64,000 bases of DNA from Bacteroidota bacterium (GTDB lineage Bacteria; Bacteroidota; Ignavibacteria; Ignavibacteriales; Ignavibacteriaceae). The first letter of the stretch is position 1. Each line of letters opens with the position of its first letter. Made by a program: the position numbers and the translations under genes. Location of the stretch: the NCBI GenBank assembly GCA_021815405.1, contig JAKAGV010000010.1:1-64000 (forward strand). Reading direction: 5' to 3'. Positions 16,876 through 48,657 of the stretch are shown here, in pieces. Under the pieces are notes generated by a model. It ran no database searches, was not told where the DNA came from, and saw only the letters and a list, made by a program, of their open reading frames with translations.

Positions 16876-18140
16876 CCCCAAACTATGCAATAAGAAATAA
16901 AAGACAAGCAAAAGATAAAAAGAATAAATAAATTAGGGAGAGGAAAAAGGACATAAAAAAATGCAAAACATCAGTTATGAATTCGTAGAAAAACTAGTAA
17001 CATCCTGAGGCGGAATGAGAATGATGAAAGAGCTTGTTGACAGGACAGGAATAAGAGAATATATGGAAAAACTTCCACTGCCAAAACCAGGCTCAAACCG
17101 TGGATATTTACCAACAGAGTTAATAGAAAGCTTTTGGGTAAGCATATGGATAGGAGCTGGCAGGTTTGCACACTCGGCATACCTAAGATATGATAAAGTA
17201 ATAAAAGAGATATTCGGATGGAAAGAAACCCCCTCACAGAGTACATACAGCAGATTCTTTGGTAAATTTAGTTGGAAGATAAACAACGAAGTATTTGTTC
17301 CAATGCAGAAATGGTTTTTAGAGCAGATAAAGATAAAAGGAGCGACAGTAGATTTTGACAGCACAGTAATGACAAGATATGGAGAGCAAGAAGGCAGCAA
17401 GGTTGGATATAATCCACAAAAGCCTGGCAGAGCGAGCCATCATCCGCTTATAGCTTTCTTAGCCGAGACACGAATGGTAATAAATGCCTGGTTAAGGCCG
17501 GGCAACACAGTGGCAGTAAATCTATTCAAGCCGATAAAATTTTTGTTGCAGGGACAGGGGGGGATGGATAACAACGAAAAGCGGTGTACAGATAAAAGAA
17601 TTTGAGTACAAAGCAATCGGATGGAACAAAGCCAGAAGACTTATAGCGGTAAGAAAAAATATAGAAAAGATGCCTAAAGCAACCGGGAAACTGTTATTAT
17701 TTAAGGAAGAACAACTGCCTCCAAAATATCGTTACAGTGTATATGTAACAAATCTGGATTTACCGGCAGAACAGATATGGAATATGTATAGAGACAGAGG
17801 GGATGCTGAGAACAGGATAAAAGAATTGAAATATGATTTTGCAATAGATGGATTTTGCATGAAGAAGTTTTGGGCTACAGAGGCAGCATTTAGAACAATA
17901 ATGATAGCATATAATTTAGTGAGCTTATTCAGACAAGTGGTGCTTCAGAATAAAACTCAGGCAACATTGAATTCATTATAGTTCAAATGCTTTGCATTAG
18001 GAAGTTGGATAAAAAAAGAGTCTCGCCACAAGGTATTAAAAATATCTATTTCTGGGAAAAGGAGAGATTGGCTGGAAGGTTTATTCTCAACTGTCGGTCA
18101 GTTATCACTTCCTTTCTCATTTTCTATTGCATAATTTGGG
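16876..18140 (+). mobile_element. Degenerate IS1380-family insertion sequence
   Basis: About 1.26 kb bounded by 16-bp terminal inverted repeats with one mismatch: CCCAAACTATGCAATA (16877-16892) and TATTGCATAATTTGGG (18125-18140). A TTA triplet flanks both ends (16873-16875, 18141-18143), a possible remnant of the short target duplication. It encloses a broken DDE transposase on the plus strand, the only plus-strand gene in the window. It is shorter than a typical intact member (around 1.5-1.7 kb), in line with an internal deletion. It cannot move by itself. Confidence 0.9.
16961..18134 (+). pseudogene. IS1380-family transposase, multiply disrupted
   Basis: The reading frame starts MQNISYEF at 16961 and hits TGA at 17006, where a Trp codon is expected (SWGGMRMM). 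It then runs to about 17520 with the first catalytic Asp region VDFDSTVMTRYG and SHHPLIAFL. A segment of roughly 70 codons holding the second catalytic Asp (the usual RADSGF region) is missing between GNTVAVN and LFKPIKF. The G7 run at 17557-17563 carries one extra G: removing it restores QGQGGW and joins the next frame. That frame has the third acidic motif (DRGDAENRIKELKYDF), a TAG at 17979 and then FKCFALGSWIKK to the stop at 18132. At least two nonsense changes, one frameshift and one deletion make it dead. Confidence 0.92.
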
Positions 18141-18189
18141 TTAGAATTAATTTACGACTTTCATTAGCGACCTCGAAGGTTGCTCTGAC

Positions 18190-18221
18190 AAAAAAATGCC
18201 GGAGTGGAAGGCTCAGGCATT
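18190..18221 (-). terminator. Rho-independent-type terminator of the gluconokinase operon
   Basis: On the minus strand, the arms AATGCC (from 18216-18221) and GGCATT (from 18195-18200), plus an inner GAG/CTC after one mismatch, form a hairpin followed directly by seven T residues (18190-18196). It lies 30-60 bp past the gluconokinase stop, the expected place for the end of the uxaE-to-gntK transcript. Confidence 0.7.
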
Positions 18222-18250
18222 CTTTTATAAAAAATATTTTCTAATTAAAT

Positions 18251-18730
18251 CTATTTGATTTTCTGTAAAATATTCTCAACTATTTTCTCAAGCGGTTGGT
18301 CAATGTCAATCGTAATTGCATTTGCCGGTTCCTCCAGCGCTTCAAACTGGCTCTTCAGCATACCCGGCTTCATGAAATGATCTTTGCGCATTTTCATTCT
18401 CGCTTCAATTAATTCATAACTGCCTTTAAGATAAATAAACTTTACCCCGTCATTCACTTTAAGAATTTTTCTGTAAGCTTCCTTTAATGCAGAACTACTA
18501 AGAATAATATTTTCACTGTGAGATAATGCGTCCTCTATTATGGTACGAAGCTTTAGCAGCCACGGCATCCTGTCTTCGTCATTCAGCGGAATTCCGTTCG
18601 ACATTTTTTCAACATTTTCTTTGGGATGATAATTGTCCCCCTCATAATATTTCCATCCGAGCTTTTCGCTCAGCATCTTACCAACGGATGTTTTACCGCA
18701 GCCGGCAACACCCATTATAATTAAAACCAT
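18251..18730 (-). CDS. gntK: Gluconokinase
   Basis: 159 aa cytosolic kinase making 6-phosphogluconate from D-gluconate and ATP. The P-loop GVAGCGKTSVGK sits at 7-18, followed by the family-specific YYEGDNYHPKENVEKMSNG and LNDEDRMPWL, and later LKGSYELIEARMKMRKDHFMKPGML. Length matches the GntK/IdnK family. AGGA precedes the ATG, and it starts 11 bp after the LarA-family gene. Placed last in an operon with tagaturonate epimerase, a mannonate-forming reductase and a LarA-family protein, it suggests that gluconate is made inside the cell from galacturonate rather than only imported. Confidence 0.95.
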   Translation of the reverse strand: MVLIIMGVAGCGKTSVGKMLSEKLGWKYYEGDNYHPKENVEKMSNGIPLNDEDRMPWLLKLRTIIEDALSHSENIILSSSALKEAYRKILKVNDGVKFIYLKGSYELIEARMKMRKDHFMKPGMLKSQFEALEEPANAITIDIDQPLEKIVENILQKIK

Positions 18731-18741
18731 TTTGTTTCCTG

Positions 18742-20013
18742 TTAATTAAATCTTTCTTTATAAGCCCAGAGACCAAGCGCCGGATTAGATATATAAAATA
18801 TTTCTTCTCCATCGGGCATTATGTTGACTCCATCTATCAGCTTTTCAGGGTTATATTTTTCAGTCATCTTCTTAATGTCAGCCCACTTAAAGTTTACACC
18901 TTCCATTTCCTCTTTAGTTATGTTGCCGGGGCAATATGTTATTGAGAATCTTCCTTCGGATGATCCGTGAATAAGATGAGCAGCCGCACTTAAGCTATTT
19001 TGAAGGTCTTCATTATCTTTTGTAAGCTGCAGAATTTTTGGAGTATTTACATAACCGTATTTTCTAATCAGCTTATCAATTCCCTTGTCCTCGCCGAATT
19101 CTTTTAAGCCTGGCGCAATGACAATCAATTCACCGCCATCATCGATTGCCATTCTGGTACGGTAAACAGATTTGTTTCCGAGCCAGGTTGTTTTGAACTC
19201 GGAAGGATCAAGATAAACGATTACTTTCTTAAGTGGTTTTTCGAGCATAACAAAATTTACTTTCAGCGAAAGCTCGGCAGCAAGATTAAAGCATTCAATA
19301 TCGTCGCCGATAAATAAACCTCTTACGGCGAGGTTATTGTTTTCGTCTTTACCTACAACGGTAAGAACATAAACAATCGGCAAGCCCTTCTGGAAATGAT
19401 CTGATCCGTAATTTAGTACTCGCTTAACCGGTGTGTCTGCTCTTCCCATTATCTTCTCCATTCCGTAAGCGGCACCGAGAAAATGGCTTTTATTAATTCC
19501 TTCCTTGCCGCCGGTACCGATAAAAATATTTTTGTTATGATTTGCCATGCCAATTACTTCATGAGGAACTACCTGACCAATTGAAAGAATAAGATCAAAA
19601 TTTCCTTCAACCAAAAGCTTATCTACCTGGATTGGAATAGGATAATCCACAGAACCATTGGAAATTTCTTTCACATAATCAGCCGGAACAATTCCAAGCG
19701 TTTCCAATCCGGTTCGCCATTCATGAACGCGGAATAGACCTTTCGGTACACTGCCGTACATTATCCCGATTTCCTTTTCAGTCATCGGTACATGCGTTCC
19801 GAGCGCCGGCAGAATATCTGTTAAATTATCTTTATAATATTCCCAAGTCATTTCCGTAAGCTTGCCGGCATAAGAATGAAGCCTGGTAATATCAGGAGGT
19901 ATTGCCAATACTTTCTTCTTTCCGCCGAGCTTATCAAGAGCTTCATACAATCCTTTTTTCAAATCTTCTTTTGAAAGATTCTCGTTGACCGAACCTTTGC
20001 TGTAATATAACAT
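18742..20013 (-). CDS. LarA-superfamily protein (nickel-pincer racemase/epimerase-like), candidate gluconate/mannonate 2-epimerase
   Basis: 423 aa. LarA-type enzymes racemise or epimerise 2-hydroxy acids with a nickel-pincer nucleotide covalently held on a lysine. The key residues fit by spacing: Asp41-x-Thr-Arg44 (LarA Asp72/Arg75), GTH with His74 (His108), PHEVIG with His151 (His174), Lys161 ten residues on (Lys184, the cofactor lysine) and His177 sixteen further (His200, a nickel ligand). Reference numbers are for Lactiplantibacillus LarA, from memory. Members acting on D-gluconate/D-mannonate are known in this superfamily. The gene lies between a mannonate-forming SDR and gluconokinase, so that reaction is the best guess. 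AAGGA precedes the ATG. larB, larC and larE for cofactor synthesis are not in the window. Confidence 0.8.
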   Translation of the reverse strand: MLYYSKGSVNENLSKEDLKKGLYEALDKLGGKKKVLAIPPDITRLHSYAGKLTEMTWEYYKDNLTDILPALGTHVPMTEKEIGIMYGSVPKGLFRVHEWRTGLETLGIVPADYVKEISNGSVDYPIPIQVDKLLVEGNFDLILSIGQVVPHEVIGMANHNKNIFIGTGGKEGINKSHFLGAAYGMEKIMGRADTPVKRVLNYGSDHFQKGLPIVYVLTVVGKDENNNLAVRGLFIGDDIECFNLAAELSLKVNFVMLEKPLKKVIVYLDPSEFKTTWLGNKSVYRTRMAIDDGGELIVIAPGLKEFGEDKGIDKLIRKYGYVNTPKILQLTKDNEDLQNSLSAAAHLIHGSSEGRFSITYCPGNITKEEMEGVNFKWADIKKMTEKYNPEKLIDGVNIMPDGEEIFYISNPALGLWAYKERFN

Positions 20014-20043
20014 TACTATCCTTTAATAATATTTGCACTCTTT

Positions 20044-20182
20044 CTTAATCGTAATCTTAATCTTGCTCTTACTCGTATTTGTCTTATCATCTTACTTCTT
20101 AACCCGATAAAGATTTCCGCCAGAGGCAGATCAGCCTTTGGCTGAACGAATGAGATTAAGAGCATTAAGAGCGAGGAATAAG
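20044..20182. repeat. Intergenic word-repeat element with nested hairpin
   Basis: The 186-bp gap between the LarA-family and SDR genes holds a left arm of CTTAATC/CTTGCTCTTACTCG words (20044-20075), a central hairpin GCCAGAGGC (20119-20127) with GCCTTTGGC (20134-20142), and a right arm of GAGATTAAGAGC words (20151-20175). The arms are imperfectly complementary. This looks like a non-coding dispersed repeat inside an operon, not a promoter. Confidence 0.5.
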
Positions 20183-20199
20183 ATCATTCTAAAAATTAA

Positions 20200-21051
20200 T
20201 TACACGCCCGAGTAAACATTAAATCCGCCGTCAATCGGGATTACAACACCGGTAACAAATTTAGCAAGATCCGATAAAAGATAAAGTACTGCGCCATGCA
20301 AATCTTCCGGCTCACCGAACTTACCCATTGGAGTTGCCGAAATTACTTTGTTGCCTCTTGCTGTAAGCCCACCGGTCTTCTCATCGATCAATAAAAATCT
20401 ATTTTGATTTGTTAGAAAGAATCCCGGTGCAATTGCATTCACCCTGATATTTAATTTAGCAAGATGAACAGCTAACCATTCGGTAAAATTATTTATTGAG
20501 GCTTTTGCTGCAGAGTACGCAGGTATTTTGGTCAGCGGTCTGTATGAGTTCATTGACGAAACATTTAATACCGAGCCTTCGCCTTTCTCAATCATGTCTT
20601 TCGTAAATACCATTGTTGGTAACACTGTCCCAAGGAAGTTCAGATCAAAAACTTTTCTGAATCCGTCAACGCTTAATCCGTAAAAAGTCTTTTCAAGCTC
20701 AGATAGATTTTCTTTCTCAATAAATTCTAATTGAGTTGTAGCCTTAGGAGAATTACCTCCCGCGCAGTTTACTAAAATATCTATTTTGCCGAAAGTTTTA
20801 TTCACCTCTTCCTTGGCTTTTTTCAGCGAATCTTCATCAAGTACATTTGCCTCAACACCGATTGCAGCAGTTCCGAATTTATCAACTAATACTTTAGCCG
20901 CCTTATCTGCGGCTTCTTTGCTAATATCAAGTACAGCGATTTTAATTCCTACGGCAGATAAACAATCTGTAATTGCACTGCCGATTACTCCGCCGCCGCC
21001 GGTAATAACGCAAACTTTATCTTTTAAATGATCAAATGAATACTTATTCAT
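20200..21051 (-). CDS. uxuB: SDR oxidoreductase, probable D-mannonate oxidoreductase (fructuronate reductase)
   Basis: 283 aa short-chain dehydrogenase. The Rossmann motif is TGGGGVIGSAI (18-28), the catalytic Ser/Tyr/Lys are in NVSSMNS and YSAAK, and the C-terminal PMGKFGEPEDLHGAVLYLLSD is characteristic of the SDR type of fructuronate reductase, unlike the long-chain E. coli UxuB. Expected reaction: D-fructuronate + NAD(P)H to D-mannonate. AAGGA lies before the ATG. It follows tagaturonate epimerase by 25 bp, matching the pathway order. Other SDR substrates are possible; the symbol follows function, not homology to E. coli UxuB. Confidence 0.85.
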   Translation of the reverse strand: MNKYSFDHLKDKVCVITGGGGVIGSAITDCLSAVGIKIAVLDISKEAADKAAKVLVDKFGTAAIGVEANVLDEDSLKKAKEEVNKTFGKIDILVNCAGGNSPKATTQLEFIEKENLSELEKTFYGLSVDGFRKVFDLNFLGTVLPTMVFTKDMIEKGEGSVLNVSSMNSYRPLTKIPAYSAAKASINNFTEWLAVHLAKLNIRVNAIAPGFFLTNQNRFLLIDEKTGGLTARGNKVISATPMGKFGEPEDLHGAVLYLLSDLAKFVTGVVIPIDGGFNVYSGV

Positions 21052-21076
21052 ATAACTTCCTTCCTTAAAATTTTCT

Positions 21077-22636
21077 TTAACTTAATTTAAATGGATCCAT
21101 ATGACGCTTAAAATGCTTGATTAAAATTTCGTAATGAAGCTCTTCGTTTTCATTCAAGCATTTATAAATTTTTTCTCTGAATAAATATTTACCGCTGCTG
21201 TCTTTCTCAGTAAGAACTCTTCCATAAGTAACATGCAGTGCTTGCCGTGCGTCGTTCGAATAGAACAAACCTTCAAGCTCCTCGTCCTTATATTCTTTGC
21301 CGGGCTTTATTCTTTTCATATCGGCAGACACGTGATAGCTTTTCTTTTCAACATCATAAAGATTTGCTGCAAAATCAAGTATCTCTCTAAATAATTCCGG
21401 CTCTTTAATAGCTACTACTTTCAATGCTTCTAGGTAGCTTGTACCGGCAGTTTTAACATGCGTAAATCCGATGTTAAGCGAACCGATAACTTTGTACGCG
21501 CTAAACTTATCGCTTCCGGAATGTAGACTGATTTTATAGCTTCCAAAGTGTTTAGCAATCTTTGCATGCTTTTCATATTCATTCTTGAATAAGTTTAAAT
21601 CGCCTTTGTAATCGATTCCTTTTTCAAAGTCGCCGATAAATCGCGGTGCTAAACTAATAAATTCTACCTTCAATCTCTTTAGTTCGCTTGCAATGAAAAA
21701 ATGTTCGAACGGAGTTGTAACTGAATCTGTTTCATCGACGGATACTTCAACTTCAAATTTTCCTTTAGGAAGCTTTGAAGCGAGATGATTGTAGAGATTA
21801 CTGATATGAAGAATGGAACCGTTGTATTTAACTACGGCTTTTAAAACATCGATTAATGAGGGCTGAATTACAAAGTCTTTTCCAATCTCAAACTTTTTAT
21901 TTTCATATCTTGCCGTTAAAGCCGATAAGCTGTCATTAAGTTTCTCCCAAGGAATTTCCTGTGCTTTCTTTTTTAAATCAGCTTCTGAAAGAATATCAGC
22001 ATCGTTATTAACATATTCTCCGGGATCGAAAGTAAATGTTGGAAAGCCTGCAGCAACTAATCTGTCAATATCCTCCTTAGTTTTAAGATGGTCGGCATCG
22101 GCGCCGAAGCCGCTCTGGAAGCCTTCCTGAAACACTGCCCAAACAGCCGCATCCAAGACATCTTCTGCAGTACGCTGCGTCCTTGTAAGCTCGCGTATTG
22201 ACTGCTGTGCAAATATCGGTCTGAATTCATATCCCTTCAACGCCCTGATGTGACCGGCATTAGCCAAACCTAACCTGTCTCCGAATCCGAATGAATTGGT
22301 TAATCCAAGCGGAACCGGCTTAGTGAATGAGAAAATTTCCTGCAAGCTTAAAGAATTCTGACGATTCAAACCGCATTTCTTTAACACCAAGTTATTTCCT
22401 TTTGAAATTCGGATTACTTCCCCGTTAAACTTATCCGGCAATTTTTCGCCAGAATTGGAAAGGATATAGAGCGACTTTTCCAAGCCTTCTCTTCCAATGA
22501 AAAAAGTTGTCCCATCAATCGATTGAACTGAGTTCTTGTAGACGTCAACCTCATGTGTATCATCAAATTTTACGGCAGATATGTAATCGCCTTTTGATAC
22601 ACTCGCATATTTCTCTTTTAGATTTTCGAAATTCAT
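21077..22636 (-). CDS. uxaE: Tagaturonate epimerase family protein
   Basis: 519 aa, converting D-tagaturonate to D-fructuronate and so joining the galacturonate and glucuronate routes. It is recognised by the family segments FGFGDRLGLANAGHIRAL, PIFAQQSIRELTRTQRTAE and FQSGFGADADHLKT, followed by a long TIM-barrel-like body with SLHSGSDKFSAY. Length is slightly above the usual 480-500 aa. No signal peptide is present, so it acts in the cytosol. Its partner isomerase UxaC is encoded 25 kb away (47251-48657), and the next genes downstream carry out the following steps. Confidence 0.88.
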   Translation of the reverse strand: MNFENLKEKYASVSKGDYISAVKFDDTHEVDVYKNSVQSIDGTTFFIGREGLEKSLYILSNSGEKLPDKFNGEVIRISKGNNLVLKKCGLNRQNSLSLQEIFSFTKPVPLGLTNSFGFGDRLGLANAGHIRALKGYEFRPIFAQQSIRELTRTQRTAEDVLDAAVWAVFQEGFQSGFGADADHLKTKEDIDRLVAAGFPTFTFDPGEYVNNDADILSEADLKKKAQEIPWEKLNDSLSALTARYENKKFEIGKDFVIQPSLIDVLKAVVKYNGSILHISNLYNHLASKLPKGKFEVEVSVDETDSVTTPFEHFFIASELKRLKVEFISLAPRFIGDFEKGIDYKGDLNLFKNEYEKHAKIAKHFGSYKISLHSGSDKFSAYKVIGSLNIGFTHVKTAGTSYLEALKVVAIKEPELFREILDFAANLYDVEKKSYHVSADMKRIKPGKEYKDEELEGLFYSNDARQALHVTYGRVLTEKDSSGKYLFREKIYKCLNENEELHYEILIKHFKRHMDPFKLS

Positions 22637-25027: not shown

Positions 25028-26335
25028 CTAAATCTTCGCCACTTCCATTTTAGGTGCAAGTGCATGGAAAATTAACAGTGCAATCAAATAAGCGGAGCCG
25101 CAAATGATAAATAATATCAAATACTGTCCGCCGGTTATTTGAAGAATAAATCCTGCGGCAGTAGCAATCAACATTCCGCCGATTGAACCAGCCATTCCCC
25201 CTAAGCCCACAACAGATGCAACTGCTTTTTTCGGGAACATATCAGATGCGGTGGTAAAAATATTTGCAGACCATCCTTGATGAGCCGCGGCTGCAAGTCC
25301 GATTAACAACACCGCCCACCATTCAGGAACAACAGAAGCAAAGACTATCGGCACAACAAGTACAGCGCAAATCAGCATTACTATTTTTCTTCCTTTATTT
25401 ATACTCCAACCTCGCTTGATAAATACTCCGGATAACCACCCACCGCCGATGCTGCCAATACTCGTCATTGTATAAATTACAATTAACGGCAAGCCAAGAT
25501 TTGCAAGGTCAAGGTTATATCTCTTATTCAAGAACAATGGCAGCCAGTAAAGATAAAACCACCAGATAGGATCAGTTAGAAATTTGCCGATAACAAAAGC
25601 CCAGGTTTGTTTGTATCTTAATAATTGCAGCCAAGGAATTTTTACAACTTCTTCTTCCGGTGGATCGCTGTTTATATAAGCCAGTTCAGATTTCGATAAT
25701 TTTTTATGTCTTTCGGGAATTTCATACTTCCATACCCAAAGAACAACCCAGATAAAGCCCAGCAGACCGGTAAAGATAAATGCTTCCTGCCAACCCCAAG
25801 TTAATGTAATCCACGGAACAACTAGCGGTGCAACTACAGCACCGATATTTGCGCCTGAGTTAAAGAGTCCGGTTGCCAGTGCTCTTTCTTTTTTGGGGAA
25901 CCATTCAGCAGTTGATTTTATTGCTGCAGGGAAGTTTCCTGATTCGCCTAAGCCTAATGAAAATCTTGCAAAGCCGAAACCGAAAACTGTTTTAACTAAA
26001 GCGTGCTCCATAGCCGCAACGCTCCATAAAGCAATAGAAATTGTGTAGCCTATTTTGGTACCGACCTTATCGATGATCCTGCCAAACACCAGCAAACCGA
26101 TTGCATACGCTGCTTGAAATGCGGTTACGATATAACCATAATCAATATCATTCCAGCCGATATCTTTCTGAAGCGTCGGGGCAAGTATTCCGAGCACCTG
26201 CCTGTCGATATAATTTATTGTTGTCGCAAAGAATAACAGCGCGCAGATTGTCCATCTGTATGAGCCGATTTTCATCTGGCTTTGTTCTTCAACAGATATG
26301 GCTTTTTCTGCAACATTAGAATTTATATTATTCAT
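25028..26335 (-). CDS. exuT: MFS hexuronate transporter (ExuT-like)
   Basis: 435 aa major-facilitator permease of the anion:cation symporter group. Twelve hydrophobic segments; signature stretches include TTINYIDRQVLGILAPTLQ in helix 1, GRIIDKVGTKIGY in the 2-3 loop, and LGLGESGNFPAAIKSTAEWF with GLFNSGANIGA. These are strongly shared by galacturonate/glucuronate importers. It lies between PL9/GH28 pectinase genes and the intracellular tagaturonate pathway, fitting import of saturated uronic acids. Uptake of unsaturated oligogalacturonides is less likely for this family. Confidence 0.87.
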   Translation of the reverse strand: MNNINSNVAEKAISVEEQSQMKIGSYRWTICALLFFATTINYIDRQVLGILAPTLQKDIGWNDIDYGYIVTAFQAAYAIGLLVFGRIIDKVGTKIGYTISIALWSVAAMEHALVKTVFGFGFARFSLGLGESGNFPAAIKSTAEWFPKKERALATGLFNSGANIGAVVAPLVVPWITLTWGWQEAFIFTGLLGFIWVVLWVWKYEIPERHKKLSKSELAYINSDPPEEEVVKIPWLQLLRYKQTWAFVIGKFLTDPIWWFYLYWLPLFLNKRYNLDLANLGLPLIVIYTMTSIGSIGGGWLSGVFIKRGWSINKGRKIVMLICAVLVVPIVFASVVPEWWAVLLIGLAAAAHQGWSANIFTTASDMFPKKAVASVVGLGGMAGSIGGMLIATAAGFILQITGGQYLILFIICGSAYLIALLIFHALAPKMEVAKI

Positions 26336-42401: not shown

Positions 42402-43436
42402 CTATCTTTCCACCCTGCCGGAGCCGCTGCCTTTAGCAAGTTTTTCAACTTCATCAATTGAAACGAGGTTGAAATCTCCAGGTATTGTTTGCTTCAAACA
42501 TGAAGCTGCTACGGCAAACTCAAGTGCATCTTTTGAATTGTTCTTTGTTAGCAAACCGAAAATCAAGCCACTGGCAAATGAGTCTCCGCCTCCGACACGA
42601 TCTACAATTTGTATATCGTATTTCTTGGAACGATATGGTTCTTTACAGTCTTTATCATCATGAAGTAAAGCGCTCCAGCCATTTCTTGAAGCCGAATAAC
42701 TTTCTCTTAAGGTAATAGCTACAGCTTTAAAATTAAATTTTGATTTAAGCTGCTTTGCTAATTCAAAATATCCTTTTTCATCAAGCTCTGCACTTTCAAT
42801 GTTGGTTGTTCCTGCTTTAAAGCCGAGGCTTTTTTCCGCATCTTCTTCGTTAGCAATGCAGACATCTACATAATCCATCAATGGAATCATTACCGATTGA
42901 GCTTCTTTGGTTGTCCAAAGCTTTGCACGGTAATTCAAATCAGCACTGATTGTAACACCATGCTTCTTTGCTGCTTCGCATGCTGCTTTTAATGATTCCT
43001 GAACTGTCTTTCCAAGAGCTGGAGTAATACCGGTCCAGTGAAACCACTTTGCATTCTTAAAAACTTCGTTCCAGTTTAATTCATCTTTACCTAAGGTAGT
43101 AACTGCAGAGTTGGCTCTATCATAAATTACTTTTGAAGCTCTCTGGCTTGCGCCGGTTTCTAAAAAATAAATTCCGACTCTTTCGCCTCCCCTTACAATA
43201 TAATTTTCATGGACTCCAAATCTTCGCAGACTGTTTACAGCAGCCTGCCCTATTTCATGTTTAGGAAGTTTAGAAATGAAGTAACTTTCAAATCCGTAAT
43301 TTGATAAAGCCACTGCAACGTTGGCTTCACCGCCGCCAAAATTTACATCAAAGCTTTGCGTTTGCACAAACCTGCTGTAACCTGGTGTAGATAAACGCAG
43401 CATAATTTCGCCCATCGTTACAACTTTATCGTTCAT
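42402..43436 (-). CDS. kdgK: 2-dehydro-3-deoxygluconokinase (PfkB family)
   Basis: 344 aa ribokinase-type kinase that makes KDPG from 2-keto-3-deoxygluconate. The N-terminal half has MGEIMLRLSTPGYSRF and FGGGEANVAVALSNYGF, the substrate-binding glycine patch; the C-terminal VDRVGGGDSFASGLIFGLL holds the anion hole and catalytic Asp. SVDEVEKLAKGSGSGRVER at the end is usual for KdgK-like members. It follows the KDPG aldolase gene by 36 bp. The pair finishes the pathway from KduD product to pyruvate and glyceraldehyde-3-phosphate. Confidence 0.92.
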   Translation of the reverse strand: MNDKVVTMGEIMLRLSTPGYSRFVQTQSFDVNFGGGEANVAVALSNYGFESYFISKLPKHEIGQAAVNSLRRFGVHENYIVRGGERVGIYFLETGASQRASKVIYDRANSAVTTLGKDELNWNEVFKNAKWFHWTGITPALGKTVQESLKAACEAAKKHGVTISADLNYRAKLWTTKEAQSVMIPLMDYVDVCIANEEDAEKSLGFKAGTTNIESAELDEKGYFELAKQLKSKFNFKAVAITLRESYSASRNGWSALLHDDKDCKEPYRSKKYDIQIVDRVGGGDSFASGLIFGLLTKNNSKDALEFAVAASCLKQTIPGDFNLVSIDEVEKLAKGSGSGRVER

Positions 43437-43472: not shown

Positions 43473-44120
43473 TTAGTTTTGCTTTGCACGTGCTATGATT
43501 TCCATAAGTATTTTAGCATTCTCAGTTAGGACACTATAATTTCCATCGGCAATAGCTTTCTTATCTAACAGTGCAGTGCCTAAACCAACTGCACATGCCC
43601 CGGCTTTAATCCAGTCTCCGGCGTTAGTCAGAGTAACACCGCCTGTCGGCATTAGTTTTAAATATGGCATTGGCGCAAGCACACCTTTGAAGAAAGCCAT
43701 TCCAACAACATCCGCAGGAAAGACTTTAATTACATCCGCCCCGGCTTCAAATGCGGTTTGAATTTCTGTAGGTGTAAATGCACCGGGCATTGCAGGAATA
43801 CCGTTTCTATGTGCTGTTTCTAAAATTTCTTTTTTGAAAAACGGGCTAACAACATACTTGGCGCCGGCATCGATTGCTTGCTGAGCAGTCTCTGCATTTA
43901 ACACAGTCCCGACACCAACATTCATGTAGCTTCCAATTTCCCGGCTTGCGTTTTTAATTACCTCAATTGCATTTGGAACGCTCGTGGTAATTTCAATTGC
44001 CGAAACACCGCCTTTGTAAATTGCTTCTGCAACTTTAATCATCTTAGAAGAATCAGCTAATCTAACAACTGCAACAGCCTTTGCTTCGAAAAGGGATTTT
44101 AATATTTCATCTTTATTCAT
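43473..44120 (-). CDS. eda: KDPG/KHG aldolase
   Basis: 215 aa class I aldolase splitting 2-keto-3-deoxy-6-phosphogluconate to pyruvate and glyceraldehyde-3-phosphate. The Schiff-base Lys is Lys132 in VIKVFPADVVG and the proton-transfer Glu is Glu43 in AIEITTS, both nearly at E. coli numbering. Other family marks are VGVGTVLNAETAQQAI, GAFTPTEIQTAFEAGAD and MPTGGVTLTNAGDWI. It is cytosolic and precedes kdgK in the operon. Confidence 0.94.
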   Translation of the reverse strand: MNKDEILKSLFEAKAVAVVRLADSSKMIKVAEAIYKGGVSAIEITTSVPNAIEVIKNASREIGSYMNVGVGTVLNAETAQQAIDAGAKYVVSPFFKKEILETAHRNGIPAMPGAFTPTEIQTAFEAGADVIKVFPADVVGMAFFKGVLAPMPYLKLMPTGGVTLTNAGDWIKAGACAVGLGTALLDKKAIADGNYSVLTENAKILMEIIARAKQN

Positions 44121-47250: not shown

Positions 47251-48657
47251 TTAAAGTTTATAAGCCTTTTTAACAAGATCATAAGCAAGAGCGTGACTCA
47301 TAACTTTGGCTTCATCCAAATCTACAATATGTTTTGCAACGAGTCCGGCGAGAAAGTTTGAATCAACTCTTCTGGATAAATCATGTCGCGCGGGAATTGA
47401 TAAGAACGCTCGCGTATCATCATTAAAACCAACAGTATTATAAATGCCCGCAGTTTCAGTTACATTTTGTCTGAAGCGTGTCATCCCTTCTATGCTGTCA
47501 TGGAACCACCATGCCGGACCGAGCTTCATTGCAGGATAATGACCGGCAAGAGGCGCAAGCTCTCTTGCATAATTTGTTTCATCAAGAGTGAAGACTATCA
47601 GCGTTAGTCTTGGATTGTTGCCGTATTTGTTTAAAAGCTCACGCATATTTTTTGTGTATTCGGTTTGAAGCGGAATGTCAGCGCCTTTATCCAATCCGAA
47701 TCTTTCAAAAATAACTTTGTTATGATTTCTCATCGCGCCGGGATGGATCTGCATTACAAGCCCGTCTTCAATGCTCATCCTTGCCATTTCCATGAGCATA
47801 TTTCCGGTAAAAAGATGCCAATCATTTTCTGAGGCAGCACCTTTCATTGCTCTTTGGAATATTGCATCGGCTTCGCCGTCACTGAGCTGATGTGTGTATG
47901 GACTGATTATTCCCTGATCGGTTGAAACTGCACCAATTGATTTGAAATATTGTCTCCGGTTCTCCAAAGCTTTAATATAATCTTTATAATTTGATACTTC
48001 TATTCCCGAAGCTTTACTTAACATTTCAATTTCTTTCTTCCAGTTTTTTGCAGTTATATTAACTACCGCATCGGGACGGAAGCACGGCATCACTCTACCT
48101 TTCCAGCCGGACTCCTTAATCTTTTTATGTTGTTCAAGGCTGTCTGCAGCGCCGTCAGTAGTACTAAGAACTTCAATGTTAAATTTCTCAAAAAGATTTC
48201 TCGGAAGAAATTCCTTCGTCTGCAATTTTTCCTGGATTGCATCATAGATTTTCATTGCGGTCTTCGAATTCAATTTTTCTTCTATGCCGAATACAACAGT
48301 GAATTCATGACTAAGCCAGGCACCGGTCGGAGTTCCGGAAAATAAATAATAGTTGTCTCCGAATATCTGCCAGATTTTTCTATGATCTTTCTCTACTTCG
48401 GTTCCGTCAACTGTTGGAATGCCGAGTGACTCAAGCTTTATTCCCTGCGAGTAAAGCATTCTGAAAATATAATGATCCGGAATAATAATTAATTCCGTCG
48501 GATCCGGAAACGGAGTATTGTTTGCAAGTATCCTCGGATCAACGTGTCCATGCGGACTGATGATTGGAAGATCTTTAACTCCGGAATATAATTCATAAGC
48601 TATATCTCTAACTTTTTCGTTCGGATCGAAATAACGAAATTCATTTAATTGTGCCAT
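47251..48657 (-). CDS. uxaC: Uronate isomerase
   Basis: 468 aa amidohydrolase-fold enzyme converting galacturonate to tagaturonate and glucuronate to fructuronate. Conserved: LPIISPHGHVDPRILANNTPF near 32-52 with the metal-site His pair, PDHYIFRMLYSQGI, STDGAADSLEQHKKI, and the C-terminal GPAWWFHDSIEGM with FNDDTRAFLSIPARHDLSRR. It supplies the substrate for the tagaturonate epimerase encoded at 21-22.6 kb, and is expressed here with kduI/kduD instead, so both galacturonate branches are probably co-regulated. Confidence 0.96.
   Translation of the reverse strand: MAQLNEFRYFDPNEKVRDIAYELYSGVKDLPIISPHGHVDPRILANNTPFPDPTELIIIPDHYIFRMLYSQGIKLESLGIPTVDGTEVEKDHRKIWQIFGDNYYLFSGTPTGAWLSHEFTVVFGIEEKLNSKTAMKIYDAIQEKLQTKEFLPRNLFEKFNIEVLSTTDGAADSLEQHKKIKESGWKGRVMPCFRPDAVVNITAKNWKKEIEMLSKASGIEVSNYKDYIKALENRRQYFKSIGAVSTDQGIISPYTHQLSDGEADAIFQRAMKGAASENDWHLFTGNMLMEMARMSIEDGLVMQIHPGAMRNHNKVIFERFGLDKGADIPLQTEYTKNMRELLNKYGNNPRLTLIVFTLDETNYARELAPLAGHYPAMKLGPAWWFHDSIEGMTRFRQNVTETAGIYNTVGFNDDTRAFLSIPARHDLSRRVDSNFLAGLVAKHIVDLDEAKVMSHALAYDLVKKAYKL

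Follow-up and report, generated by a model that had tools for sequence, protein, structure and literature searches.

A LarA group 18 gene in a candidate galacturonate-via-gluconate block of an Ignavibacteriaceae genome lacking detectable larB, larC and larE

Described routes and the four-gene block

Epimerisation of mannonate to gluconate was proposed by Rodionova in 2012 for the pectin locus of Thermotoga (via PMC6978723, PMC3750489), where the operon of T. maritima has the composition aldH-pelB-gnd-uxaRED-gntEK (PMC3750489, PMC7953866). D-gluconate epimerase activity has since been reported for groups 19 and 20 of the LarA superfamily, GntE1/GntE2 (Desguin 2020, PMC7583248), and the GntE2 of T. 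maritima, PDB entry 4NAR, belongs to group 20 (PMC7583248). The galacturonate-phosphoketolase pathway of Lactobacillus suebicus (Valk 2020, PMC6978723) shares the upper route to mannonate and leads on to 6-phosphogluconate and pentose phosphates, but what was shown there is a mannonate kinase and a 6-phosphomannonate 2-epimerase, the genes of which were not identified. Here we analyse a block of four genes in a stretch of 64,000 nucleotides from a Bacteroidota bacterium of the family Ignavibacteriaceae (assembly GCA_021815405.1, contig JAKAGV010000010.1, positions 1 to 64,000; "the window"). At a probability of roughly two in three, the block encodes the lower steps of a pathway for galacturonate via a mannonate-gluconate epimerase that obtains its cofactor from outside the known biosynthetic route.

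The open reading frame (ORF) list and the profile searches agree with the first-pass annotation of the window in placing four consecutive genes on the minus strand, which are listed here with the adjoining features (SDR, short-chain dehydrogenase/reductase):

21077..22636, minus strand: uxaE, tagaturonate 3-epimerase (Pfam UxaE PF16257, 575 bits)
20200..21051, minus strand: SDR-type uxuB, fructuronate reductase / D-mannonate oxidoreductase (NCBIfam PRK08277, 392 bits, cut-off 281)
20014..20199, minus strand: intergenic gap of 186 bases between uxuB and the LarA gene (from the sequence)
18742..20013, minus strand: LarA-superfamily group 18 gene (larA18), predicted D-mannonate/D-gluconate 2-epimerase (NF052594, NPN_18_hexonate, 655 bits, cut-off 500)
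18251..18730, minus strand: gntK, P-loop gluconokinase (TIGR01313, 182.5 bits, cut-off 113.75)
about 18183..18233, minus strand: terminator-like hairpin with T run, 3' of gntK (-17.7 kcal/mol, z -4.3)

The scores lie far above the cut-offs, and a chance arrangement or misannotation was therefore rejected. The gene order is that of the T. maritima operon, i.e. uxaE, a fructuronate reductase gene (uxaD there), a LarA-type epimerase gene and a gluconokinase gene, and the same route has been proposed for it. The block unites the genes of the Rodionova gluconate route, which is prior art; the first-pass annotation had not known of it as a pectin-locus pathway, and novelty of the route is not supported. 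The two systems differ in that the LarA protein of T. maritima belongs to group 20 and that of the window to group 18, in that gnd lies inside the Thermotoga operon and elsewhere in the present genome, and in that T. maritima contains both LarC and uxuA (it served as a control in the searches for both), whereas larC was not found in the window's genome.

In the proposed route, galacturonate would be converted by UxaC to tagaturonate, by UxaE to fructuronate and by UxuB to D-mannonate, which the group 18 protein would epimerise at C2 to D-gluconate; GntK would then form 6-phosphogluconate, and the product of a stand-alone gnd elsewhere in the genome would yield ribulose 5-phosphate and CO2. The reduction by UxuB would roughly cancel the oxidation by 6-phosphogluconate dehydrogenase, and thus the pentose phosphate pool would be reached without net reductant. 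The epimerase would use a nickel-pincer nucleotide that is either taken up or made outside the LarB-LarE-LarC route. The sequence itself shows the gene families, the key residues, the neighbourhoods and, at the cut-offs given, which genes are absent, and every reaction, what group 18 acts on and where the cofactor comes from are inferred.

The intergenic gaps of the block comprise 25 bases (uxaE/uxuB), 186 bases (uxuB/larA18) and 11 bases (larA18/gntK). The fold of most of the longest gap is unremarkable (z -1.5), and a repeat family was rejected because no copy was present among the compared loci. The hairpin behind gntK, already recognised in the first-pass annotation, folds well, with none of 200 shuffles folding as well, although it was absent from the output of a simple terminator scan. 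Just past gntK (window 17015-17981) lies a DDE_Tnp_1_4 transposase gene split over two ORFs; together with the location of gnd, a near gene in most relatives, away from this locus, it makes a rearrangement possible.

The group 18 protein and its gene neighbourhoods

The LarA protein of the window, encoded by the sole Lar_N match of the genome at E <= 0.001, belongs to the NCBIfam family NPN_18 "putative hexonate epimerase". In a PDB sequence comparison, 4NAR alone is matched at E <= 0.001, and D41, R44, H74, H151, K161, H177 and K281 align with D38, R41, H73, H154, K164, H180 and K287 of GntE2, for which residues have been assigned to catalysis and cofactor binding (PMC7583248). Accordingly, D41, H74, H151 and K281 are the catalytic residues and R44, K161 and H177 the cofactor residues of the window protein, and the presence of His151, Lys161 and His177, which the first-pass annotation had compared with the cofactor/nickel site of LarA, was confirmed. 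The loop-signature residues E152 and V153 are present, and W277 is taken for the signature tryptophan. The AlphaFold2 model (predicted local distance difference test score, pLDDT, 89.3) has GntE2 as its top match (4NAR, E 8e-27), ahead of structures of lactate and malate racemases, and each of the 19 PDB entries that it matches at E <= 0.001 is 4NAR or bears lactate racemase, malate racemase or LarA-like in its title. The window protein thus resembles GntE1/GntE2 in its fold, in the loop glutamate and, by alignment to GntE2, in the residues for catalysis and cofactor binding, but it belongs to group 18, its function is predicted, and the known cofactor genes were not found in its genome. From group and gene context, D-mannonate/D-gluconate epimerase activity is predicted for it, and the nickel-pincer nucleotide is probably needed. 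LarA group 18 thereby gains a concrete predicted substrate.

Relatives were collected from two sources. A phylum sample of 395 genomes contained 41 genomes with a LarA match, 22 of them above the group 18 cut-off (the window's genome, G000, included), and a contig scan yielded at least 585 relatives, of which the best 80 were analysed; among these are Bacteroidota, Ignavibacteria, Caldithrix, Planctomycetes, Verrucomicrobia, Lentisphaerae, Acidobacteria and Spirochaetes. From 111 loci (the window and L061-L170), those without a LarA protein in the crude gene calls (L080, L089, L116, L145, L160, L163) and those with a distant LarA (L082-L088, L090) were left out, so that 97 group 18 loci remained, with L076 and L123, which encode the same protein, both counted, and L142 and L156 coming from one assembly. 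Neighbour labels are cluster-based, with representatives named by profile. Among the loci with distant LarA, L086, L087, L088 and L090 have partly similar surroundings; their LarA proteins are 27-31% identical to that of the window, and their genomes bear LarC.

Within six genes of larA18, the 97 loci contain a kinase gene in 74 cases, uxuB in 71, gnd in 70, uxaE in 42, pdxB in 36 and uxuA in 8. In the 43 loci with complete context, the numbers are 39 for a kinase, 38 for uxuB and 37 for gnd, and all three occur together in 33. Across phyla, larA18 is thus often accompanied by uxuB, a sugar kinase gene and gnd, which together with the membership in the putative hexonate-epimerase family supports the pathway reading of the first-pass annotation. 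The kinases belong to different Pfam families (PfkB 64, PFK 8, GntK 2). GntK follows larA18 in the window and in L092, and the window's sister in the tree, L091 (84% identical), has a PFK-family protein in the place of GntK, along with a HAD-family protein and gnd. The interchange of kinase families at this position suggests a kinase that acts on the substrate or the product of the epimerase, and GntK points to gluconate. A redox-neutral route from a pectin sugar to pentose phosphates would exist in several phyla, with candidate PfkB-, PFK- and GntK-type kinases encoded near the epimerase.

The main rival, which we consider unlikely, places the kinase first: 6-phosphomannonate would be made and then epimerised by the LarA-type enzyme to 6-phosphogluconate. 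Extracts of L. suebicus did phosphorylate mannonate before its epimerisation (PMC6978723), and the arrangement in many relatives, with PfkB directly upstream of larA18 in 42 of 97 loci and gnd directly downstream in 33, also speaks for this order of reactions. However, the kinase of the window is of the GntK type and is encoded downstream of larA18, mannonate is reportedly not a substrate of the E. coli GntK (a finding cited in PMC6978723), and the enzymes of the related groups 19 and 20 take mannonate in its free form (PMC7583248). Very improbable is a second variant, in which group 18 would epimerise another hexonate and gluconate would not be the product in vivo. The substrate of the group rests on prediction, and two pocket positions differ from GntE2 (V153 versus S156, N280 versus G286); nevertheless, uxuB, a kinase gene and the 6-phosphogluconate dehydrogenase gene are frequent neighbours of larA18, and the window kinase is GntK.

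All 22 group 18 genomes of the phylum sample contain gnd, and in 19 of them it lies at most 2.5 kb from larA18 (exceptions G000, G014 and G176). The window's genome has two copies, one stand-alone on contig C2 and the other beside zwf (one of the two was named by an NCBIfam profile), and 6-phosphogluconate dehydrogenase is thus available for the Rodionova route. The stand-alone copy shares 79.5-82.3% identity with the six closest of the 74 gnd copies from the loci, the lowest values among the 74 being about 52-57%, and the zwf-linked copy reaches at most about 53%.

Two further neighbours of larA18 deserve mention. A pdxB-like gene (4-phosphoerythronate dehydrogenase; the representative from L062 was profiled) is often encountered near larA18 and gnd, L062, L065, L110 and L124 being among the 36 loci counted above. 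The PFK-family protein (representative L103, PRK14072) occurs in L069, L071, L091, L096, L103, L107, L135 and L158, in most cases accompanied by the HAD-family protein, and is possibly a new sugar-acid kinase.

Mannonate dehydratase and the missing cofactor genes

Several observations weigh against a mannonate-gluconate route at this locus. For group 18, Desguin 2020 (PMC7583248) offers a hexonate as a hypothesis only, and the activity reported there is that of groups 19 and 20. Neither gnd copy of this genome adjoins the block. A kinase gene directly adjoins larA18 in only 49 of 97 loci, none is found within six genes in 23 (a number of these end at contig edges), and gntK is present in only 2, making the exact gene set of the window rare. 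The genome contains uxuA (G000:C5:145730-146884; 416 bits, TIGR00695 526 bits), as do six other group 18 genomes (7 of 22 in total, a rate that covers only genomes with a group 18 gene), and uxuA is near larA18 in 8 of 97 loci. Lastly, profile searches at cut-off detected none of larB, larC and larE in the window's genome.

The first-pass annotation had proposed that the epimerase stands in place of mannonate dehydratase. Its statement that the window lacks uxuA was upheld (a tblastn search with the UxuA protein of the same genome found none at E 1e-3). Replacement fits 15 of the 22 group 18 genomes, in which uxuA was not found in a search that did not extend to enolase-family mannonate dehydratases. 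In the present genome, in contrast, uxuA adjoins a gene for a major facilitator superfamily (MFS) transporter and is near genes of the glycoside hydrolase families GH10 and GH115, i.e. it belongs to a glucuronoxylan/glucuronate locus. Because uxuA is kept in this separate locus, mannonate would be a branch point in this genome, and not a step at which uxuA was replaced.

The absence of all lar maturation genes, which the first-pass annotation had named as refuting its proposed route, holds for this genome and extends well beyond it. LarC was above cut-off in 14 of 40 genomes (the 41 LarA-matching genomes of the phylum sample minus the fragment-bearing G326), LarE in the same 14, and LarB in 9 of the 30 genomes searched, all of them within this set. 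Among the 22 group 18 genomes, the same 7 carry larB, larC and larE, and 15 carry none of the three. In lar-less genomes the matches were weak, at most 46.4 bits for LarE (cut-off 150) and 47.1 bits for LarB (cut-off 175), and were judged to be other PP-loop proteins and PurE. In the whole sample of 395 genomes, LarC was above cut-off in 23 and Lar_N in 40, with both in 14; 26 of 40 LarA genomes are thus without LarC, and the gap is not peculiar to group 18. In the contig scan, LarC was matched in 20 of the 50 genomes searched (of 79), two of the 20 matches being weak and partial.

Assembly gaps were rejected as the whole reason, since the single-contig genomes G188, G124 and G302 have larA18 and no LarB, LarC or LarE above cut-off; for the contig-scan genomes tested for LarC, completeness was not told and gaps are possible. 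The lar-less proteins do not form one clade, as the label must change 16 times along the tree, with starred branches forcing at least 9 of these changes. One clade of 17 rows (support 94/89) is entirely lar-less and holds 11 of the 12 genomes of the same order and both genomes of the same family. A search for lost cofactor residues among the lar-less lineages found none: the seven residues for catalysis and cofactor binding do not vary in any of 95 group 18 proteins (43 lar-less, 24 with LarC and 28 without a LarC test, "lar-less" being defined in the contig scan by LarC alone). This alignment left out one duplicate and two rows with weak LarC matches, and for L116, L145, L160 and L163 no protein had been called.

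An idle or specialised enzyme in this genome, which would carry no flux for lack of cofactor and leave mannonate to pass through UxuA to 2-keto-3-deoxygluconate (KDG), is improbable. This would fit the failure to find the three lar genes and the presence of uxuA, a kdgK-like gene and a gene for 2-keto-3-deoxy-6-phosphogluconate (KDPG) aldolase, but larA18 is intact with every key residue kept, and 11 of the 22 group 18 genomes contain neither uxuA nor lar genes and still keep larA18 (G263, G302, G031, G035, G062, G124, G176, G224, G361, G393, G093), with gnd nearby in 10 of the 11. Because lar-less genomes retain an intact larA18 with every cofactor residue, the absence was not taken as fatal, and the gene reads as encoding a working epimerase that would be supplied with cofactor from outside the known LarB-LarE-LarC route.

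Cofactor supply in lar-less genomes is the main difficulty for the route via gluconate, and the many lar-less genomes that keep an intact epimerase gene are the most promising part of these findings: their enzymes would be expected to depend on a nickel cofactor, itself a recent discovery, for which the known biosynthetic genes are missing. A literature search, mostly outside subscription papers, yielded nothing relevant on LarA without LarBCE or on import, scavenging of or auxotrophy for the cofactor. The reverse pattern, larBCE without larA, has been described for cyanobacteria (PMC11796402). The chances appear evenly balanced that the nickel-pincer nucleotide is a shared vitamin, i.e. that many bacteria with LarA-type epimerases in a main hexuronate pathway do not produce it by way of LarB, LarC and LarE and would either receive it from neighbours or form the nucleotide, or a substitute that fills its site, in another way.

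Some genomes showed further unusual combinations. The genomes of L106 and L155 (G403 and G439) contain LarC-like ORFs of 284 and 268 amino acids that match only about the first 230 positions of LarC (best piece 83 and 87 bits). In each of eight genomes of family f43 (G167, G207, G215, G246, G258, G270, G278, G392), Lar_N is matched twice and LarC is absent. LarC above cut-off without a Lar_N match, the pattern described for cyanobacteria (PMC11796402), was seen in G066, G097, G128, G172, G240, G119, G141, G145 and G336.

Other window genes of hexuronate metabolism

Further genes of the window belong to the proposed route or to a parallel branch:

47251..48657, minus strand: uxaC, uronate isomerase, first step of the route (PRK02925, 553 bits, cut-off 387)
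25028..26335, minus strand: MFS transporter gene, possibly for hexuronate uptake (Pfam MFS_1; best NCBIfam match TIGR00893, under its cut-off)
42402..43436, minus strand: kdgK-like PfkB kinase gene, other branch (KDG from kduI/kduD; best match NF041633, under its cut-off)
43473..44120, minus strand: KDPG aldolase gene, other branch (TIGR01182, 185 bits, cut-off 156)

In the profile search, the window also yielded kduI and a kduD-like gene slightly under its cut-off, and, judged by reading the ORFs, it carries GH28 and further pectin genes elsewhere.

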